Shown one piece after another: positions 1,720-20,069 of a DNA stretch of 23,525 nt. The position numbers were made by a program, and so were the translations under genes. The notes beneath the pieces were generated by a model. That model had not been told where the DNA came from. It did no database searches and worked only from the letters and a program-made list of their open reading frames with translations. The DNA comes from a virus. Each line of letters opens with the position of its first letter. The first letter of the stretch is position 1. The stretch lies in IMG/VR virus record IMGVR_UViG_3300009488_000076, positions 1 through 23,525 of that record; one strand, given 5' to 3'.

Positions 1720-1966
1720 CGCAGGGTATCGAGCAGTTGAACAATTAGTTAAAGTTGCTCGAGAAGAAATAATCAAAGCTGATCCACAAGATGACTTAGC
1801 CGCAGACAGATTAAAAAATGCTGCTGCAACAAAAAAACTTTGCATTATGGATGCGTTTGAGATAGTCAACAAAATTGAAGAAGAAAAGAATATTCTTGAA
1901 ATATCAGAAAAAGGAAAAACAAAAATAGATACTAAACAAGGTTTTGCAGAAAGAAGGTCTAAATAG
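1679..1966 (+). CDS. Small helical protein, candidate small terminase subunit
   Basis: It encodes 95 residues, mostly helical and highly charged, ending in TAG. Motifs include AVEQLVKVAREEI, DLAADRLKNAAATKKL and DAFEIVNKIEEEKN. Its position directly before the large terminase, overlapping it by 23 bases, and its helical make-up fit a small terminase subunit, which recognises viral DNA and stimulates the large subunit. No helix-turn-helix is evident, so this rests on context. The ATG at 1679 is used; an in-frame ATG at 1685 is an alternative. The start lies inside the previous gene. The tail end, AGA AGG TCT AAA TAG, sits at the unusual start of the terminase frame. Confidence 0.65.
   Translation: MTMNSKDLKEKIINAGYRAVEQLVKVAREEIIKADPQDDLAADRLKNAAATKKLCIMDAFEIVNKIEEEKNILEISEKGKTKIDTKQGFAERRSK
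1944..1946 (+). other. Probable non-AUG (TTG) start of the large terminase
   Basis: This is the only common start codon between the upstream in-frame stop (1926-1928) and the conserved N-terminal region. A purine-rich AGAAAGAAGG follows it rather than precedes it, so it does not act as its ribosome-binding site. A +1 shift from the upstream frame is the alternative. Confidence 0.5.
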
Positions 1967-4106
1967 TTTATATGTAACAATAACAGATATTGTTGCTAAG
2001 AATATTGTTTCAAACAAAAACAGAAACAAAAGTTGGCTCTATGGATACAATGCAAAATACGATATTGTAGTTATATCTAAAACAGGAGAAATAGGAGATA
2101 TAATAGAAATAAATGGATTAAAAATTGCTTTACCAAAACCTCCAAAGTCTCTTCAAAGAGACACAAATAAATGGGTTAGAAAAAAAGAACCTCAACCTTT
2201 ATCTAAAATAAATTCCATATTCCAATGGAATACAATGCCAAATGAATTTAAAAACAAATGGGTAGACTATATTGAACAAGAGTTTGATAGAAGAGATATA
2301 GGGTATTGGTTTTATAACAACAACAAACCTACATACATAACGGGTGCACATTATATGTATTTACAATGGACAAACATTGATGTGGGTTATCCTGAATTTA
2401 GAGAAGCAAACAGAGTTTTTTATATATATTGGGAAGCTTGTAAAGCAGACAATAGGTGCTTTGGTCTTGTGTATTTAAAAATTAGAAGGTCAGGATTTTC
2501 GTATATGGGTTCTTCAGAATGTGTAAATACGGGAACACTAGCAAAAGACTCAAGGGTAGGTATATTATCTAAAACAGGTTCAGATGCCAAAAAAATGTTT
2601 ACAGATAAAGTTGTTCCTATATCTAGTAGATTGCCTTTCTTTTTCAAACCTATACAAGATGGTATGGACAAACCTAAATCAGAACTAGCATTTAGAATAC
2701 CTGCTTCAAAAATAACTAAAAAGAATATGTATGATATATCTGATGAAGAGTTATATGGACTAGATACTACTATTGATTGGAAAAATACAGATGATAACTC
2801 TTATGATGGAGAAAAATTATTATTATTAGTTCACGATGAAAGCGGAAAATGGTTGAAACCAAATAATATTTTAAACAATTGGAGAGTAACTAAAACTTGT
2901 TTGAGGTTAGGTAGTAAAATAATTGGTAAATGTATGATGGGCTCAACATCTAATGCATTAAATAAAGGCGGTTCAGAATTTAAACAATTATATCTTGATT
3001 CAAATCCAAGTAAAAGAAATGCAAATGGACAGACTAAAAGTGGATTATATAATTTATTTATTCCAATGGAGTGGAACTTTGAAGGGTATATTGATGAATA
3101 TGGAATGCCAAATGAAGAAGTAATTGAGTATTGGAATGCTGAAGTAGAGTCACTAAAAAATGATCCCGATGCTTTGAATGAATATTATAGACAGTTTCCA
3201 AGATCAGAATCACACGCTTTTAGAGATGAAAGTAAAGCTTCTATATTTAATTTAACTAAAATATATCAACAAATAGATTACAATGATTCTTTAATATTAG
3301 AACATCATTTAACTAAAGGTTCGTTTTATTGGAAAGATGGAGTAAAAGACTCAGAAGTTGTTTGGACTCCCAATCCAAGCGGAAGGTTTTTAGTTAGTTG
3401 GATTCCGAAAAGTAATCTACAAAATAGATTTGTAAAAAAACAAAACAACAAACATCCAGGTAATGACCATCTCGGTTCTTTCGGATGTGATAGTTATGAT
3501 ATATCGGGAACTGTAGGTGGTAGAGGATCTAATGGTTCATTACACGGATTGACTAAATTTAATATGGATGATGCTCCTAGCAATGAGTTTTTTCTAGAAT
3601 ATATTGCACGACCACAAACTGCTGAAATATTTTTCGAAGAAGTATTGATGGCTTGTGTGTTTTATGGTATGCCGATTCTAATTGAAAACAACAAACCTAG
3701 ATTGCTATATCATTTTAAAAATCGAGGATATAGACACTATTGTATAAACAGACCTGACAAACATTATAATAGATTATCTAAAACAGAAAGAGAGTTAGGC
3801 GGTATACCCAACTCTAGCGAAGATGTAAAACAAGCTCACGCAGCAGCAATAGAATCGTATATAGAAAACCATATTGGTTTGAATGGAGAACAAATGGGTT
3901 TTATGCCTTTTAACAGAACTTTAGAGGATTGGGCAAAGTTTGATATATCTAGTAGAACTAAATATGATGCTTCGATTAGTACGGGTTTAGCTATTATGGC
4001 TAATCAAAAACATAAGTATTTACCACAAAAAAAACAATCAAATTTAATTGTTAACTTTGCAAGGTATAATAACAAGGGAATTTATAGCGAAATAATTAAT
4101 AGATGA
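1944..4106 (+). CDS. terL: Terminase large subunit (DNA packaging ATPase/nuclease)
   Basis: It encodes 720 residues, the usual size for crAss-like terminases. The protein pumps DNA into the prohead by ATP hydrolysis and cuts concatemers. Numbering from the TTG, an atypical Walker A-like RRSGFS lies at residues 181-186 and Walker B LLLLVHDE ends at D298-E299. The C-terminal RNase H-fold nuclease shows candidate acidic residues D516 (GCDSYD), E581 (IENN) and D627 (SEDVKQAH). No in-frame AUG occurs before residue 98, yet the sequence upstream (YGYNAKYDIVVISK) looks fully coding. The frame is closed upstream by TAG at 1926-1928, so TTG at 1944 is the best start. It ends in TGA overlapping the portal ATG (ATGA). 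Confidence 0.92.
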   Translation: MQKEGLNSLYVTITDIVAKNIVSNKNRNKSWLYGYNAKYDIVVISKTGEIGDIIEINGLKIALPKPPKSLQRDTNKWVRKKEPQPLSKINSIFQWNTMPNEFKNKWVDYIEQEFDRRDIGYWFYNNNKPTYITGAHYMYLQWTNIDVGYPEFREANRVFYIYWEACKADNRCFGLVYLKIRRSGFSYMGSSECVNTGTLAKDSRVGILSKTGSDAKKMFTDKVVPISSRLPFFFKPIQDGMDKPKSELAFRIPASKITKKNMYDISDEELYGLDTTIDWKNTDDNSYDGEKLLLLVHDESGKWLKPNNILNNWRVTKTCLRLGSKIIGKCMMGSTSNALNKGGSEFKQLYLDSNPSKRNANGQTKSGLYNLFIPMEWNFEGYIDEYGMPNEEVIEYWNAEVESLKNDPDALNEYYRQFPRSESHAFRDESKASIFNLTKIYQQIDYNDSLILEHHLTKGSFYWKDGVKDSEVVWTPNPSGRFLVSWIPKSNLQNRFVKKQNNKHPGNDHLGSFGCDSYDISGTVGGRGSNGSLHGLTKFNMDDAPSNEFFLEYIARPQTAEIFFEEVLMACVFYGMPILIENNKPRLLYHFKNRGYRHYCINRPDKHYNRLSKTERELGGIPNSSEDVKQAHAAAIESYIENHIGLNGEQMGFMPFNRTLEDWAKFDISSRTKYDASISTGLAIMANQKHKYLPQKKQSNLIVNFARYNNKGIYSEIINR

Positions 4107-11538: not shown

Positions 11539-12462
11539 ATGGCTTATATATCACAATATCAATATTACGAAAATGGTGGAAATCAACCCGAAGATGCTAA
11601 TTGGGGATCTTATCAATATGTGAGTTTGGAAGATATTGTAACCAACTTTCAATTAATGTATGCAGACAATCATACATTGGTTAATAATGAAGAAAGATAT
11701 AAGATATTATTCCACGCAAAAAGAGCGATTCAAGAATTAAACTATGACGCTTTCAAAGAAATTAAAGTTTTACAATTAACTGTTGGAGAAGAATGTAGAT
11801 TTATTCTTCCTTCCGACTATGTGAATTGGGTTAGAATATCATATTACAAAGATGGTGTTATAAGACCAATGACTGAAAACATACAAGTAAACTCATCATT
11901 AGCATACCTACAAGATAATACCACTCGTATTCTTTTTGACCATACGGGAGCTGCATTAAGTCCTCAGTTTTCTGATCTAGATATAGCAAGAATTACCGGC
12001 CAAAAACCTAGTATTTATCTTAATAGATTGAGTCCTTATTTTGGTCTATTAGGATTTGAATTTGAAGGGTGTTGGTATTTTGATTTTCCGATAGGTGCAA
12101 GATATGGTTTAAATACAGAAACTGCAAACGCAAACCCTACATTTAGAATTGACAATAAAGCGGGAGTTATAAATTTTGATTCTTTAATGAAGAATGAAAG
12201 TTGTATACTAGAATATGTTTCTGATGGAATGGAAAACGGAGACAATTCTAAAATAACTGTAAATAAATTATTTGAAGAATATGTATATGCTTATATCACT
12301 TATACAATTTTAAATTCAAAGTTTGGTGTTCAAGAGTATGTTGTAAATAGAGCTAGAAAAAATAAAACGGCATTGTTACGAAATGCAAAAATTAGATTAA
12401 GTAATATACATCCTGGCAGACTTTTAATGAATTTAAGAGGTAGGGACAAGTGGATAAAGTAG
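11539..12462 (+). CDS. Ring / tail connector protein 2 (crAss-like)
   Basis: It encodes 307 residues, starting in AATAATTATGG two bases after the previous stop. The N-terminal helix pair NNEERYKILFHAKRAIQELN (residues 49-68), then LPSDYVNWVRISYYKDG (90-106), is a signature I recall from crAss-like tail connector proteins, which resemble the T7 gp11 (tail tube A) fold. The C-terminal part has a helix EYVYAYITYTILNSKFG and a basic end (RKNKTALLRNAKIRLSN) that could face DNA in the channel. It stops at TAG one base before the muzzle gene ATG, so the two are probably translationally coupled. Exact ring level is uncertain. Confidence 0.77.
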   Translation: MAYISQYQYYENGGNQPEDANWGSYQYVSLEDIVTNFQLMYADNHTLVNNEERYKILFHAKRAIQELNYDAFKEIKVLQLTVGEECRFILPSDYVNWVRISYYKDGVIRPMTENIQVNSSLAYLQDNTTRILFDHTGAALSPQFSDLDIARITGQKPSIYLNRLSPYFGLLGFEFEGCWYFDFPIGARYGLNTETANANPTFRIDNKAGVINFDSLMKNESCILEYVSDGMENGDNSKITVNKLFEEYVYAYITYTILNSKFGVQEYVVNRARKNKTALLRNAKIRLSNIHPGRLLMNLRGRDKWIK

Positions 12463-12463
12463 T

Positions 12464-14188
12464 ATGACTAAAGTACAAAGAAATTTTATAAAAGGTAGAA
12501 TGAACAAGTCTGTTGACGAAAGACTTGTGCCTAATGGAGAATATATAGATGCTCTTAATGTTCGTTTAGGTTCTACTGAGCAGTCTGAAATAGGTTCGGT
12601 GGAGAACAGTAAAGGTAATACTGTTTTAACTGCCTTAAAGTTTCTTAATATCGATTTGAGTGCTAATGCAAAATGTATTGGTGCATTTGAAGATGGAGCG
12701 AAAGAAACTATTTATTGGTTTGTTCACGATCCTAGTGCTCCTGCTGCTATTAGTCCTACGGGTAAATGTGATATGATTGTTTCTTTTGAAACTACACAAT
12801 CTGTTTTAGAATATCATATTATTTCAGTTTATGATGGTGGTGTAAATCAAGCAGACACAGTTTTAAATTTTGATCCAAGTTTTTTAATTACGGGAGTTAC
12901 AAAAGTTGAGGACTTATTGTTCTTTACAGACAATTTGAATCCTCCAAGATTTATCAATGTTAAAAGAAGTTATCTTGATCCAACTACCAACAACACAGTA
13001 TTATTAACCGATGGAGATGGTAATCCCGAGCTACTAGCTGAAACCATTTTAGTTGTTAAAAAACCACCTATTGAAGCACCTTCTATTGAACTTACTAGAT
13101 TAGCGGGGCAAGAAAACTTTTTAGAAGAAAGACTAATTTGTTTTGCTTATAGGTATGAATACGAAAATGATTCTTATTCTGCCACATCACAGTTTACCGA
13201 AGTAGCGTTTTCTACAGGAGCTTTTGGTTACGCAGCAAATACTGCTCTGAACGAGGGTATGATAAATATATTTAATACTGCAATTATTACTTTTAATTCA
13301 GGAGGTCCTTTAGTTAAAGGAATTGACTTGTTGTTTAAAGAAAATGATAACCCAACAATTAAGGTTATAGAAAAACTAAATAAAGAAGATTTAGGTTACG
13401 CAGACGATACAGAATATACTTATACTTTTCAGAACAGTAAAATCTTTACAATTTTACCCGAGAGTGAAACATTAAGATTATATGATAATGTTCCTTTGAA
13501 AGCTCAAGCTTTAACACTTATGGGCAACAGATTAATATATGGTAATTATGAAGATAATTATGATTTAATTGATGAGTTTAATAGTCCCGTTAGGTTTGAT
13601 TATTTTGCAAGGTTAAATGCTGAGTTAATTGGTTTTACTGAAATACCCGACAGTTTTGATGTGGGTACATACACTTATGGTTCAACACAAACTATTAGTG
13701 ATTCTATGTTAAAGATTGATTTAGCGGGGGTGGACTTAGTGCAAGGAGCTTCTATTACGATTGATGCTCGTTTTACACATAGTTTGTTTAGCGGAACACC
13801 CGCACCAAGTGAAACCACAGTTAATGTTCAGGTAGAATTAAGTTTTATATTAATTAACAATTACGCATCAGTTTATGATTTAGCTACATCCGTAGAATTT
13901 CAAGAAGCAGTTGGTATAGCTACGAATATAAAACCTGTTTATGACGCAGATCCAAACGCTGAAACATCTTGTGATGGAAACACTTGGACTGACATTGTAA
14001 ATTGTGCGATACCTCAAACGCTAGATGCAAACCAAAATCCAAGTTTTACAAAAGTAGAAAGTGGTATAAATGGATCAAATGAACCTTTGTTTATAGAGAC
14101 AACACCTGGTTCAACTGAAATAGGTATTCAATTAATTGCAATGAAGTTTGTAGACGATCCTACTCTAATAGGAGATACAGTTTATTAA
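12464..14188 (+). CDS. Tail muzzle / stabilization protein, segment 1 (to in-frame TAA)
   Basis: This is the N-terminal 574 residues of the long muzzle frame. It opens with NKSVDERLVPNGEYIDALNV (residues 14-33), the signature at the start of crAss-like 'stabilization' proteins, which are related in role to P22 gp10 and T7 gp12 at the tail tip. Repeated strand patterns (KVEDLLFFTDNLNPPRFINV, AQALTLMGNRLIYGNYEDNY) fit a beta-propeller. The frame stops at TAA (14186-14188) within ...TVY-stop-YYEW, and the following codons continue the same protein. If termination is real, the product would lack the distal tail domains. It starts one base after the preceding gene's TAG. Confidence 0.85.
   Translation: MTKVQRNFIKGRMNKSVDERLVPNGEYIDALNVRLGSTEQSEIGSVENSKGNTVLTALKFLNIDLSANAKCIGAFEDGAKETIYWFVHDPSAPAAISPTGKCDMIVSFETTQSVLEYHIISVYDGGVNQADTVLNFDPSFLITGVTKVEDLLFFTDNLNPPRFINVKRSYLDPTTNNTVLLTDGDGNPELLAETILVVKKPPIEAPSIELTRLAGQENFLEERLICFAYRYEYENDSYSATSQFTEVAFSTGAFGYAANTALNEGMINIFNTAIITFNSGGPLVKGIDLLFKENDNPTIKVIEKLNKEDLGYADDTEYTYTFQNSKIFTILPESETLRLYDNVPLKAQALTLMGNRLIYGNYEDNYDLIDEFNSPVRFDYFARLNAELIGFTEIPDSFDVGTYTYGSTQTISDSMLKIDLAGVDLVQGASITIDARFTHSLFSGTPAPSETTVNVQVELSFILINNYASVYDLATSVEFQEAVGIATNIKPVYDADPNAETSCDGNTWTDIVNCAIPQTLDANQNPSFTKVESGINGSNEPLFIETTPGSTEIGIQLIAMKFVDDPTLIGDTVY
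14186..14188 (+). other. In-frame TAA within the muzzle gene
   Basis: Context is GTT TAT TAA TAT TAC GAA. Coding continues in the same phase on both sides. TAA is the normal terminator of most genes here. Confidence 0.85.
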
Positions 14189-14947
14189 TATTACGAATGG
14201 ACATTTGCTGAAGTTACTTTTCAAGAAGTTGCCAACGCTAGAAGCTTACACAGTAATAGAGATTATGAGGTTGGTATAATATATATGGATGAATATAATA
14301 GAGCAACAACTGCTTTAGTTAGTGAAAACAATTCAGTTCATATTCCTTGTGCAAACTCTGAAACTAAGAACAATTTAATTGTTACTATACCCGTTACGCA
14401 AAGACCTCCTAAATGGGCGAAAAGATATAAGTTTTGTATTAAACCCGATAGAGAAACTTATGAAACCATTTATAGTAATATATTCTTTACCGATCCCGCA
14501 ACAAATGATACTTACTTTTTATTAGAAGGAGAGAATCAAAATAAAGTAAATGATGGAGATAGGTATATAGTAAAAGCTGATACTGACGGACCTTTGAATA
14601 GATGTGCTTTTGCAACTGTGTTAGAAAAAGAAGCACAAACAGAAGATTTTATTGAAGTCCCAACGGGAGCACAAGATTCCAATGGAGACGATATTTTAGT
14701 TCCCATACCCGCAGGGACATATATGAAAATGCGAGTAAATACTTTTAGTATTGATACGGGAGAAAACCCCGTGATAACTCCAGGACAACAACAAACATCA
14801 GCTTTAAATGGAAATTATCCTATAGAAAAATATCAAGGTTTGAGTGGAGATCCCGATGCCAACGGAGTTTATACACCTTTTGATATTCCACAAGGTTCAA
14901 GAATCGTTTTGAAAATTAAATGGAATAGAGATGGTGTTGGTCAATGA
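14189..14947 (+). CDS. Tail muzzle / stabilization protein, segment 2 (between in-frame stops)
   Basis: This is 252 codons of open frame in the same phase as segment 1, ending at TGA (14945-14947). Directly after the TAA the frame encodes YYEWTF then RSLHSNRDYEVGIIYMDEYN, a conserved muzzle motif, so the coding signal crosses the stop without a break. The first ATG is at 14285, in the middle of that motif, and has no AATTATG context, so independent initiation would cut a conserved block. The rest is beta-rich (WAKRYKFCIKPDRETYE, GSRIVLKIKWNRDG). It is best read as part of one gene, expressed by read-through or broken by mutation or sequence error. Confidence 0.65.
   Translation, partial: YYEWTFAEVTFQEVANARSLHSNRDYEVGIIYMDEYNRATTALVSENNSVHIPCANSETKNNLIVTIPVTQRPPKWAKRYKFCIKPDRETYETIYSNIFFTDPATNDTYFLLEGENQNKVNDGDRYIVKADTDGPLNRCAFATVLEKEAQTEDFIEVPTGAQDSNGDDILVPIPAGTYMKMRVNTFSIDTGENPVITPGQQQTSALNGNYPIEKYQGLSGDPDANGVYTPFDIPQGSRIVLKIKWNRDGVGQ
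14945..14947 (+). other. In-frame TGA within the muzzle gene
   Basis: Context is GGT CAA TGA AAC GGA. Coding continues in phase. TGA is a genuine stop at 1115-1117 and 4104-4106, so it is not reassigned throughout. Confidence 0.85.
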
Positions 14948-17900
14948 AACGGAAACTGTGAAAGAAGAAGATATAATTTAGAGTTAACATTAGTTTCTAA
15001 CAACGACTATGATAATATAATAGATTGGTGGAACGGACAAAACATACAAGCTTTGATAAACACCGGTGAGCAAGAAGTTGGTGGAGGTGCAAGTTTAATT
15101 ACAAATGAGTATATATCTACTTTAGCAACTGAAGCAAATGGTAATCCTGGAGCTACTATAACTCCTACTCTTAGCACTAATTTTATCCAATGGTATCAAC
15201 ATACTGTTACCAATGAAATAATATTTTTAGTATCGGGAACAAGAGGTTGCGGTGGATTATCAAGAAAGTCTAAAAGAAGGTCAAGAGTAAAAGTAGAGTG
15301 GGAAATATTTAGAGCAGAAAGCACAATTGTTTGGGAAACATTACCACTCGATGCTAACCCCGATATATGGTTTGAAGGTTCACAGTCTTTTGCTATTGAA
15401 AATGGATTACATCAATCGGGTAACCAAAGCGGAGACCAAAATCAAACCGCACTATTACCCGCTCTTGTATCTACAGATTTTGCAAATTGTTTTGCTTTTG
15501 GAAACGGAGTTGAAAGTTATAAAATAAGAGATTCTATAATTGGTAAAACTATGGTGTTAGGAAACAGAGTTACCTCAACACAATCTGAAGATTATAGAAA
15601 AGTCCATAGGTTCGCAGATTTAACTTATAGTGGTATATATAATGATGAGTCTAATGTAAATAAACTAAATGAATTTAATTTAGGTTTATTAAACTTTAAA
15701 AACCTAGAAGATTCTTTTGGACCTATAATGAGAATAGAAGGTAGAAGCACCGATGTGTTATGTTTGCAAGAAGATAAAATATCTTATGTATTAGCAGGTA
15801 AAAATTTATTATCAGATGCTGCCGTTGGCGGAGCGATTGCTTCAGTACCCGAAGTTTTAGGAACACAGATTGCAAGATTAGAAGAATTTGGAATTAGTAG
15901 AAACCCCGAAAGCTATGCTATATATGGATACGATAAATATTTCAGCGATGCTAAACGAGGTGCTTTATTACAGTTAAAAGGCACGGCTTATAGTAACGAA
16001 CAATTAATTGTTATTTCAGAAAACAATATGAGAAGTTGGTTTAGAGATTTATTTATTGATTTTCCAACTACACAAAAACTAGGAGGGTTTGATCCTTATA
16101 TGGATGAGTATGTATTTTCTTCTAACAACTTACAATTGCCGTCAGAGGTGGTTTGTATTGATTGTAATACCACAAGAACTTTTCCTAAAGATGCTAATCA
16201 AATTATAGATTTATGTTATGATTTAGGTAGTCTTGTTGGAGATGTAGGTATTGTAATAAATGTTACTAACATAACAAATGATATAGAGTTAGATTTTAAT
16301 TATAATAACGCTTCTACAACTGTAGATATAGATGTAGATGGAACATATACTGAAACCATTAATAAAGATTCAGTTCAAGAAACTCAATTAGATGTTACAG
16401 TAAGTGGTGCGGGTAGTGCTACCATTGAACTTACTGTAAATTGTCCCGATGCTCCAACTATCAGAATATATCAGATTACTGTTAATAATAACAACGAGGC
16501 AAACCAATCTATTCACAATGAATACAGATGGACAGATGGTGCATTTATTTCTCCTCAACATTCAGAGCTTGTAGTTTTACAAGCAGGATTTGACAACCCT
16601 TTAGTTTCTCAATACTCAGTTGTTTCAGGTCCTCAAGGAGGTGGTGTGATTCCCGCTAACGGAGCAACAGTTACAATAAATAACAATAAAATACCACCGA
16701 GTGATGATTTTGTGTTTAATCCAAGCACAATGAGTTTTAAATTTTTAAGAAGTAATATTGGGTACAACAATACCCCCGCAGATATTTTAGCTTTATTATT
16801 AAATGCGTCAACACAAACTTTACCAACAGATGCTACACTTGCTCCCGATATTTATAGTGGTCAATTTACAATGCCTAATACGGGAGATAATTTATATTTA
16901 ATATATGACTATAGACAACCAACTGAAGTAATATTATGTTATGGAACAAGTGTCGCTGATGTGTGTTGTGAATGTGATCAAAGCGATCCACCTTCTGCCG
17001 TTACATTTTTAGTTCAACAATGTAGAAACGACCAAGTTATAAATATAGAATATGTAGACCAAACTGATTTAAGTGGTACGATTTCAATTGGAGATTTTAT
17101 TACCATTAATGATCCAAGTTTAACTCCAGGATGTGCGTTTGAAGTATTGAGTCAATCAAATCAAACTGCAACTTTTTCAGCTCTTGCAAAATTAAACATA
17201 GACAATTGTAGCGGAACTTGTCAAGAATATACTGTAACTAATCCAACATCAATAAAACCAACTATATTTTATACTGATTGTCAAGGTGCTCCACAACAAG
17301 TTCTTGTAGATGGAGGAGGTAGTGTAACTTTTTGTTCAAGTGGCAGCATTACAAGTTCGGGTGTATTTATAGATGATCTTGTTGTAGTGTTAAATAAATG
17401 TGAGTGTGGTGCACCACCACCAACCACAAATTATAGACTAAGGAGATGTCAATCAACTTTTACAAATTCTGCACCCCCCGAAGTAATTGCGGATTCTCCT
17501 CTCATTACTCCTAGTATTGGAAATTTAGTGGTAATTACAGGACAACCCGATTGTGTATATGAAGTAATATCTTTAGTACAAGATGTGGAAAGTATCAGTA
17601 TAACATCATTTGCAACTGAAAGCACTTGTACGCAAGTATGTAATTTTTATACTGTAAATCTTGCTTCAGGAACATCGGGTAGTATTACATTTAAAGATTG
17701 TGATAATGGTGGTCAAGTCACTACTATAAACTTTACTCCCAAAACTACATCTGCAACTATTTGCACCACAGAAGTAACTCAAATAAGTAATAATGTTGAT
17801 TTAATATTTAATAATTGTAAATGTCCCGAAGAAGAAGAACCCGCATTTTTAGGTAAACTTTGTGCGGGACAAGGATTAGACTCTACACAATTCCAAGATA

Positions 17901-18265
17901 TTTTTGATGTGTTAGAGGATTCCTTTGGTTTAGGAGTTCAAGTAGGAGATTTTGTAGAGGTTGATAGTAAATTTACGGGATCTAGTTGTGTATACGAAAT
18001 TGTTTCAACAACAAGCTCTGCACCTGTATATCCTATAGACAGACTCCATCCGCAACAATCTTGTGTAGGTGTTGATAATATTTATGAGTTAACAAACTCT
18101 ACTGTAAATCAAAAAAGTGTAGAATATGTAGATTGTACCTTTGCAACACAATTGATTAGTATTCCACCAGGATTTACAGATGTGATTGGTGCAACAGAGT
18201 TTGTAAGTGTGGATTCAGGAGTAGTTGTAAATGTAATATCTTGTGATTGTGTAACCCCAATATAA
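14948..18265 (+). CDS. Tail muzzle / stabilization protein, segment 3 with Cys-rich C-terminal repeats
   Basis: This is the third same-phase stretch, 1105 residues, ending at TAA. After TGA the frame runs NGNCERRRYNLELTLVSNND, and the first plausible start, TTG at 15053, lies 35 codons in, arguing against a separate gene. Residues up to about 16150 continue the tail propeller (DVLCLQEDKISYVLAGKNLL, FGISRNPESYAIYGYDKYF). A beta-sandwich part with NEYRWTDGAFISPQ and VVSGPQGGGVIPANGATV follows. The last 435 residues form three Cys-rich repeats. The distal part likely forms the tail tip that meets the host surface. The next gene follows after 9 bases. Confidence 0.8.
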   Translation, partial: NGNCERRRYNLELTLVSNNDYDNIIDWWNGQNIQALINTGEQEVGGGASLITNEYISTLATEANGNPGATITPTLSTNFIQWYQHTVTNEIIFLVSGTRGCGGLSRKSKRRSRVKVEWEIFRAESTIVWETLPLDANPDIWFEGSQSFAIENGLHQSGNQSGDQNQTALLPALVSTDFANCFAFGNGVESYKIRDSIIGKTMVLGNRVTSTQSEDYRKVHRFADLTYSGIYNDESNVNKLNEFNLGLLNFKNLEDSFGPIMRIEGRSTDVLCLQEDKISYVLAGKNLLSDAAVGGAIASVPEVLGTQIARLEEFGISRNPESYAIYGYDKYFSDAKRGALLQLKGTAYSNEQLIVISENNMRSWFRDLFIDFPTTQKLGGFDPYMDEYVFSSNNLQLPSEVVCIDCNTTRTFPKDANQIIDLCYDLGSLVGDVGIVINVTNITNDIELDFNYNNASTTVDIDVDGTYTETINKDSVQETQLDVTVSGAGSATIELTVNCPDAPTIRIYQITVNNNNEANQSIHNEYRWTDGAFISPQHSELVVLQAGFDNPLVSQYSVVSGPQGGGVIPANGATVTINNNKIPPSDDFVFNPSTMSFKFLRSNIGYNNTPADILALLLNASTQTLPTDATLAPDIYSGQFTMPNTGDNLYLIYDYRQPTEVILCYGTSVADVCCECDQSDPPSAVTFLVQQCRNDQVINIEYVDQTDLSGTISIGDFITINDPSLTPGCAFEVLSQSNQTATFSALAKLNIDNCSGTCQEYTVTNPTSIKPTIFYTDCQGAPQQVLVDGGGSVTFCSSGSITSSGVFIDDLVVVLNKCECGAPPPTTNYRLRRCQSTFTNSAPPEVIADSPLITPSIGNLVVITGQPDCVYEVISLVQDVESISITSFATESTCTQVCNFYTVNLASGTSGSITFKDCDNGGQVTTINFTPKTTSATICTTEVTQISNNVDLIFNNCKCPEEEEPAFLGKLCAGQGLDSTQFQDIFDVLEDSFGLGVQVGDFVEVDSKFTGSSCVYEIVSTTSSAPVYPIDRLHPQQSCVGVDNIYELTNSTVNQKSVEYVDCTFATQLISIPPGFTDVIGATEFVSVDSGVVVNVISCDCVTPI
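16967..18250 (+). repeat. Three tandem Cys-rich repeats of about 140 residues
   Basis: C-x-C pairs lie at 16967-16975, 17399-17407, 17816-17824 and 18242-18250, spaced 144, 139 and 142 codons. Each unit contains an early RC/QC/LC cysteine, a C-x-(Y/F)-E-(V/I) strand, a cysteine followed by a tyrosine strand (EYTV, FYTV, IYEL), and a YxDC/FKDC strand. Repeats 1 and 2 have an additional cysteine that repeat 3 lacks. The DNA is diverged. Confidence 0.8.
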
Positions 18266-18274
18266 ATTTTAATT

Positions 18275-19213
18275 ATGTCTACATCAAATACATATTATTT
18301 AAACGGACCTACCCTCGCTACTGCGACTGCGGTTTTTAGTGATTCTAACTTAACTGTTTGTGCTCCCGATGGTTTTTATTCTGATAATACCATTTCAAGA
18401 GAGCAAGTAAACTGTGTGTTATTACCCGCTCAAACTTGTCCAAGTTGTGCAAGTCCATGTGATTCTCCGATAAACGCAGATGGAGATCAAGGATTTTACA
18501 AAGCGTCATTCCAATCAGGAACAGATACGGGTGCTATGCTTATATATTTTAGTCCTAGAGGAATACCCGATGGTATAAAAGCAAGTTTAGGAACATATAG
18601 CACAAGTGAAACCACAAGTCAAACTCACGGATATGCGGCTGCAAGTTCAATGAATAATTTTGTATATCTAGGTAACCCAAGTCTAGACTGCGGTATAGGA
18701 ACTACCTTAGATGCGGGTGGATTTACAAATTTAAATGAGTTTGTTTATCAAGGCGGTAATGTAAATGATTATGTTGGAACAGGGCAAACTGTTAACATAC
18801 AAGGATCAAGTGCCGATGTAGTATTGTTGGGTGGTTATTCTCAACCTACTAATATGGCTACATTAGTAGTTCCTAAAACAAGTAATGTAGATGAAATATT
18901 AATTGTAGATGTTGTCGGTCCTTGTAGCGGAACGGCATTTGATTTACAAATAAACTGTCCCGCACCTTTGTTACCCACACCAATATCGACTGTGGGAGAA
19001 GAATGTGGTACAGATCAATTTCCAAATACAGTTTATGTTGCACCTAATTCTAACGGAACTGCGGGAGATCCCGCACTCAACGAATTTGCTTTTGCAGATG
19101 AGAATGGTGCTCAAAAATACAGTCCTGGACAATACACTATCAACCCCGCAAGTGGTAAGAAATTTATAACTATAGATGGAAATGGAGTAATAACTAATTT
19201 TGTAAATTGCTAA
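18275..19213 (+). CDS. Tail protein with Cys-rich beta modules
   Basis: It encodes 312 residues, starting in TTTAATTATG nine bases after the muzzle stop. The N-terminal module (YYLNGPTLATATAVF, APDGFYSD, then Cys 47, 55, 58 and 62 in QTCPSCASPC) is one I recall from tail proteins of Bacteroidota phages. The centre is Gly/Ser/Thr-rich beta sequence (GMLIYF-like strands, FVYLGNPSLDCG, VVLLGGYSQPTNMATLVV). The C-terminal module (NTVYVAPNSNG, FAFADENGAQKYSPGQY, ITIDGNGVITNFVNC) is a separate small beta domain with a terminal Cys. No signal peptide or membrane segment is seen. It is probably a tail-tip or fibre-attachment component beside the muzzle. One base separates it from the next ATG. Confidence 0.72.
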   Translation: MSTSNTYYLNGPTLATATAVFSDSNLTVCAPDGFYSDNTISREQVNCVLLPAQTCPSCASPCDSPINADGDQGFYKASFQSGTDTGAMLIYFSPRGIPDGIKASLGTYSTSETTSQTHGYAAASSMNNFVYLGNPSLDCGIGTTLDAGGFTNLNEFVYQGGNVNDYVGTGQTVNIQGSSADVVLLGGYSQPTNMATLVVPKTSNVDEILIVDVVGPCSGTAFDLQINCPAPLLPTPISTVGEECGTDQFPNTVYVAPNSNGTAGDPALNEFAFADENGAQKYSPGQYTINPASGKKFITIDGNGVITNFVNC

Positions 19214-19214
19214 T

Positions 19215-20069
19215 ATGTCAACAAATTATACACTAACATATGATGAAGGAGTAAAAGGGTTTCCATCCTTTTACAGTTTTTTCCCTGACTTTATGATGGG
19301 AATGAATAATTATTTTTACACATTTAAAGGTGGAAACTTATATAGACACAACACTAATTCAATTAGAAATCAATATTATGGTGTAAACTATTCATCTAAT
19401 ATTACATCAGTCTTTAATGAAAACCCATTGGTTAACAAAGTATTTAAAACCATTGCTTTAGAATCGGATGATGCGTGGTCATTTAACGGATCTAGTGATC
19501 AGCAAACGGGAAACTTTATAGAAAGTTCGTTCTTCAAATTAAAAGAAGGAGACTACTATGCTTTTTTAAGAGCTGAAGGAACTACAGAAACTAATGTTCC
19601 TGGACAATATATTGACATACCCGCTAACTCAGCACAGTTTCCGTTGAGGTCAGTAAATGGTATTGCTAATTGCACAACTGTAGATGCAACTAACCCCGCA
19701 TCTGTTATTATTAATTTTGCATTAGATATAAGTATTGGTTCAATATTAAGTGTTGGAGATTTAATATATTTTGGAGATCCTAATGTATCGCCAATAACAC
19801 CGACATTAGGTGGTGTTTTACTAAATATAAATGTAGATTTACAGAACAGTATAAATCAAATTATTATTGACACTACCATAACAAATACTGCGGGTGTCGT
19901 AGTAGGTCAAGCACCTTCAGATGCTGACTATATATTCTTTATAAAGTCGGGTGTAGCAGAGTCTCACGGACTTTTAGGGCACTATTGTGTGTTTGAATTA
20001 AGAAACAATAATACTGCCGCAGTAGAGCTATTTGCCGTGATGGCTGATGTAATGAAATCTTTCCCTTAA
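19215..20069 (+). CDS. Conserved phage tail protein
   Basis: It encodes 284 residues, starting one base after the previous stop. Strongly conserved-looking blocks are EGVKGFPSFYSFFPDFMMGM (residues 11-30), NYFYTFKGGNLYRHNTNSIR (32-51), NPLVNKVFKTIALESDDAW, GLLGHYCVFEL and the end ELFAVMADVMKSFP. I recall this block set in tail clusters of crAss-like and flavobacterial phages, always after the muzzle gene, with no assigned reaction. It is aromatic-rich and lacks catalytic motifs, suggesting a structural tail part. The stop TAA is followed within seven bases by the promoter of the next unit. Confidence 0.75.
   Translation: MSTNYTLTYDEGVKGFPSFYSFFPDFMMGMNNYFYTFKGGNLYRHNTNSIRNQYYGVNYSSNITSVFNENPLVNKVFKTIALESDDAWSFNGSSDQQTGNFIESSFFKLKEGDYYAFLRAEGTTETNVPGQYIDIPANSAQFPLRSVNGIANCTTVDATNPASVIINFALDISIGSILSVGDLIYFGDPNVSPITPTLGGVLLNINVDLQNSINQIIIDTTITNTAGVVVGQAPSDADYIFFIKSGVAESHGLLGHYCVFELRNNNTAAVELFAVMADVMKSFP

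Follow-up and report, generated by a model that had tools for sequence, protein, structure and literature searches.

The IMG/VR virus record IMGVR_UViG_3300009488_000076, whose full 23,525 bases form the window analysed here and which is assigned to a marine flavobacterial phage, raises the question of how a long structural gene is to be read when its frame carries two different stop codons. The frame, which codes for a muzzle homologue, runs on the plus strand from 12464 to 18265 and corresponds to 1934 codons. On translation its only internal stops were a TAA at codon 575 (14186..14188) and a TGA at codon 828 (14945..14947), and its terminal codon is TAA. The stops divide the frame into an N-terminal piece of 574 amino acids (12464..14188), a middle piece of 252 codons (14189..14944), in which the first possible in-frame start is the ATG at 14285, and a C-terminal piece (14948..18265), in which the first possible in-frame start is the TTG at 15053.

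All three pieces, also on the plus strand, matched the same PHROG profile, phrog_14478, in collinear order. Residues 5-489 of the N-terminal piece aligned with profile positions 2-442 (E 7e-89), residues 13-201 of the middle piece with positions 519-698 (E 1e-41) and residues 17-661 of the C-terminal piece with positions 793-1367 (E 4e-95). Identity to the closest relatives was 51-52 % just before the TAA, compared with 65-66 % at codons 576-640 and 71-76 % at codons 641-730, and was 51-57 % behind the TGA. In codon usage all three pieces correlated with the remaining window genes (r 0.85-0.89), compared with 0.31-0.42 for the shifted frames. Given the collinear profile matches, the sustained identity and the matching codon usage, the coding continuity across the stops is not due to chance, in agreement with the initial annotation, which had described coding character and recognised motifs as continuing past both in-frame stops. 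The same annotation had argued against a global reassignment of the genetic code from the presence of all three stop codons as terminators; TAA, TAG and TGA were each found to terminate other genes of the window, and global reassignment was thereby ruled out. An intron or intein was also ruled out, since neither stop is accompanied by inserted sequence and the alignment is collinear across both.

The gene encodes a crassvirus-type muzzle homologue, as had been proposed from the sequence at the outset, and Pfam, PHROG and fold comparison agree on this. The Pfam family PF25731 (crAss_MUZ) matched residues 5-400, within the N-terminal piece, with 36.2 bits against a curated cut-off of 27. An AlphaFold2 model of residues 1-1199, in which both stops were read as residues, had a pLDDT of 71.6; it was built from an alignment that excluded three rows from annotated records. 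When this model was searched against PDB folds, the muzzle of phiCrAss001 (gp44; PDB 7QOK, 7QOL; PF25731) was the top match, with 7qok_A first (E 2.3e-8), 7qol_P at E 6.4e-8 and a probability of 1.00, the global TM being only 0.2. A PDB sequence search with the pieces of the gene matched nothing; the structural match to the muzzle came from the fold search. The gene lies among structural genes behind terminase and portal, as in phiCrAss001, but is longer (approximately 1930 codons, compared with a solved chain of 1361 residues), and the window differs from phiCrAss001 also in its two private stops and in having the C-terminal muzzle domain as a separate gene. This gene (crAss_MUZ_C by Pfam, 19215..20069, plus strand) is intact and stands one gene away from the muzzle body, and many relatives have an ORF of 265-300 codons in a similar place. 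The term crAss-like in the initial annotation fits less closely than muzzle: the named relatives found by sequence belong to Pachyviridae, Elemovirus and further flavobacterial podoviruses, and Crassvirales does not appear in the NCBI lineage of either Pachyviridae or Elemovirus.

Related loci, 211 in total, were collected from IMG/VR scans and annotated phages, and 151 distinct relatives spanning both stop sites were used for the site comparison. Among the flavobacterial podoviruses with a muzzle of the same gene family and in the same frame are the Cellulophaga phage phi18:3 (Pachyviridae; gp114), Elemovirus elemoF (gp22), the phage of record MW202828.1 (UOF82506.1) and the IMG/VR loci L085-L093, and the near relatives also share the neighbouring genes. 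A stop was found at neither column in any of the 151 relatives (0/151). The muzzle homologues named above likewise lack both stops and, where the complete gene is present, encode it in one unbroken ORF, unlike the window. The homologue comparison suggested with the initial annotation gave sense codons at both sites, and the closest relatives, L085-L093, which are approximately 60 % identical over the middle segment and have nearly the same gene length, are uninterrupted there, codon 575 being GAA (Glu) and codon 828 GGT (Gly). In three of them (L086, L089 and L090) the whole gene is present as a single ORF of 1937-1946 codons, compared with 1934 in the window when its stops are included. Codon 575 is Glu in 133 of the 151 relatives (76 GAA and 57 GAG). 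At the 828 column Gly is the commonest residue where a residue is present (16/34), and GGA is the commonest Gly codon. In all three bacterial genomes in which a muzzle relative was found, Glu occupies position 575 and position 828 is free of a stop. Pattern scans of IMG/VR at both sites found no nearly identical contig with sense codons, in a scanned set that may lack very near records. One muzzle relative (L215; CP070801.1, 878735-896015) lies in a chromosome-sized MAG labelled Candidatus Aenigmatarchaeota, and is probably phage sequence that was wrongly joined or binned.

As none of the relatives has a stop in these positions, the TAA and the TGA are, as judged from this alignment, private to the window contig. 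A single G>T step from the ancestral sense codon would explain each of them. For codon 575 the alignment argues strongly for such an ancestor; at 828 the ancestral codon, also one G>T step away, would have been GGA, with less certainty, as the column is poorly conserved. Of the 853 single-base changes that could create a stop within the muzzle gene, 174 are G>T, so that two of two would occur by chance in approximately 4 % of cases. G>T is known as an oxidation artefact (PMC12390751), and the type of both changes hints weakly at the oxidative-damage class.

Clear private nonsense changes are rare in this family, with approximately 2 in approximately 660,000 aligned codons from 212 loci. The scan for internal stops counted a stop where homology was good before and behind it, those at the ends of muzzle genes being true ends bridged by the alignment. 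The probability of two nonsense changes in approximately 7,000 codons was approximately 2e-4 if they are independent, a value softened by the window having been picked for having both stops; independence may also fail, since a shared cause (thin coverage or damaged DNA) is possible. Elsewhere in the contig 10 of 999 near-invariant columns had odd residues, compared with 1/563 to 29/972 in control contigs. An error-rich contig is accordingly not supported, and the contig would contain at most a few errors. Locus L007 has a private in-frame TAA at muzzle codon 1007 (L007:5252-5254). As a second case of recoding this stop was rejected, as it lies in another part of the gene, at a variable position, and is likewise private.

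Programmed read-through or suppression of both stops, by which the initial annotation would have obtained three nested forms of the muzzle, would have the TAA read as a Glu-like residue and the TGA as another residue by suppressor tRNAs of the phage or the host. Conserved coding sequence does run on behind both stops, and crAss-like phages recode TAG and TGA, mostly in late genes (PMC7886860), with TAG read as Gln and TGA as Trp, the likeness to the window being in-frame stops in a late structural gene. Continuity of the open frame is, however, no specific support for recoding, since an error explains it as well. The relatives lack both stops, and decoding both TAA and TGA would call for a suppressor for each. 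A phage survey names only TAG and TGA reassignment (PMC11210395), and in one alpha-group crAss-like genome a TAA-suppressor tRNA is encoded but not used (PMC7886860). Recoding in crAss-like phages affects many late genes and is often accompanied by phage suppressor tRNAs, whereas here a single gene is affected by two stops and no suppressor was identified. The 23,525-base window, a fragment, contained no tRNA genes, and a search of 22 related records, comprising one bacterial MAG and 21 phage records 16 to 67 kb long, likewise identified no suppressor tRNA; the phage hits were few and those typed by ARAGORN were tRNA-Met(cat). In MW202828.1 Infernal detected two atypical tRNA-like genes (523-697, L216) that ARAGORN did not call and that were left untyped; the anticodon arm of the first contains a long insert. 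Recoded phages are recognised by an in-frame stop that recurs in several genes and by avoidance of that stop as a terminator. In-frame stops are absent from all other window genes, the muzzle gene has one TAA and one TGA, TAA terminates most window genes and TGA ends the genes at 890-1117 and 1944-4106. No SECIS or other recoding element was matched in Rfam up to E 5 in 12000-18500, and the RNA downstream of the stops folded no better than shuffled sequences (z 0.0 to 0.4); selenocysteine insertion at the UGA was ruled out on the lack of an Rfam element and of a significant fold near the stops. Read-through thus found no backing in the relatives, in the search of the window and the 22 records for suppressor tRNAs, in the other genes of the window or in RNA structure, and is considered improbable. 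Slightly more improbable still is the variant in which the TAA (Glu-like) and the TGA would be translated by suppressors encoded outside the fragment, as an early change of code so far confined to this gene; two different stops recoded in one gene only would be a new pattern relative to the literature cited here on phage recoding. The other proposal, a genuine fission in which the muzzle would assemble from two or three polypeptides, each with its own start, has a precedent in the clade L056-L081, in which the muzzle really is encoded by two genes and an ATG directly follows the first stop. That split sits elsewhere, at approximately residue 190, and the second gene begins only a few bases after the stop; a conserved extra domain has been added at the end of the first gene (for example L062:3747-10389). 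In the window no start codon stands at or right behind either stop, the next in-frame starts being 96 and 105 nt downstream, and the stretch that would be lost between the TAA and the ATG at 14285 holds the invariant residues S594, L595, S597 and R599. Codon 575 also falls inside a predicted 16-residue beta-strand (572-587), and codon 828 lies in a length-variable loop between the predicted strands 813-822 and 835-844. From the published muzzle structure, in which other muzzle domains are inserted within the propeller, a fragment ending at residue 575 would not be expected to complete the propeller. The close relatives have intact, single genes in place of the three separately started ones that splitting would predict, and fission is regarded as the least probable of the readings.

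With these options having lost support, sequence error and nonsense variants, which had been listed last in the initial annotation, are what remains, and single-base errors or dead variants most likely account for the locus better than a novel mode of stop-codon read-through would. The relatives have sense codons at both sites and an intact ORF of the same length, and no recoding machinery was found; the unchanged conservation behind both stops fits a change that is either erroneous or very recent. Real nonsense mutations would make the contig a defective or minority genome, for instance a haplotype that was merged during assembly or a dead genome rescued through co-infection by intact phages, in which the first stop would inactivate the muzzle and the second would then be free to arise. 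The location of both stops in one gene, with the other genes of the window open, fits the loss of a single gene; the contig also lacks a general excess of errors. Apart from the two stops, however, the muzzle gene shows no decay. The phi18:3 homologue was annotated as one protein from virion mass spectrometry, and the phiCrAss001 muzzle is the probable gatekeeper of the tail (PMC10172136), so that a muzzle mutant should not dominate a lytic population. A real defective variant is placed second, as an unlikely reading but a clearly stronger one than recoding or fission. Error at two bases, in the consensus or by DNA damage, is probably the correct reading of both stops and is the first choice. 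The gene would then encode an ordinary tail muzzle protein, of the kind apparently made as one polypeptide in the relatives. Two single-base changes, most likely G>T at Glu codon 575 and at Gly codon 828, would have been introduced into the assembled sequence by consensus error or DNA damage, presumably where coverage was thin. The phage population would carry sense codons at both sites and make the full-length protein without recoding. That one gene should carry two nonsense changes is unusual and counts against error; in its favour, other contigs of the family have similar private interruptions, namely the TAA in L007, a TGA near the contig end in L092 (in the gene at position 103) and frameshifts in L150 and L199. 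Overall, the data fit both readings, with errors the likelier of the two.

A single uninterrupted gene is the usual state of the muzzle, though not strictly a defining one, as one clade has it split, and the window departs from this state. If the stops were real and decoded, the locus would be a rare case in a phage of TAA used as a sense codon, together with TGA, in a gene required for infection. As the evidence stands, its main value is that of a caution that single metagenome contigs may bear private nonsense changes in long genes, the reading of which is quickly settled by relatives. What the comparison adds lastingly to the knowledge of the family is a by-product, the clade with a truly split muzzle together with the separate gene for the C-terminal muzzle domain.
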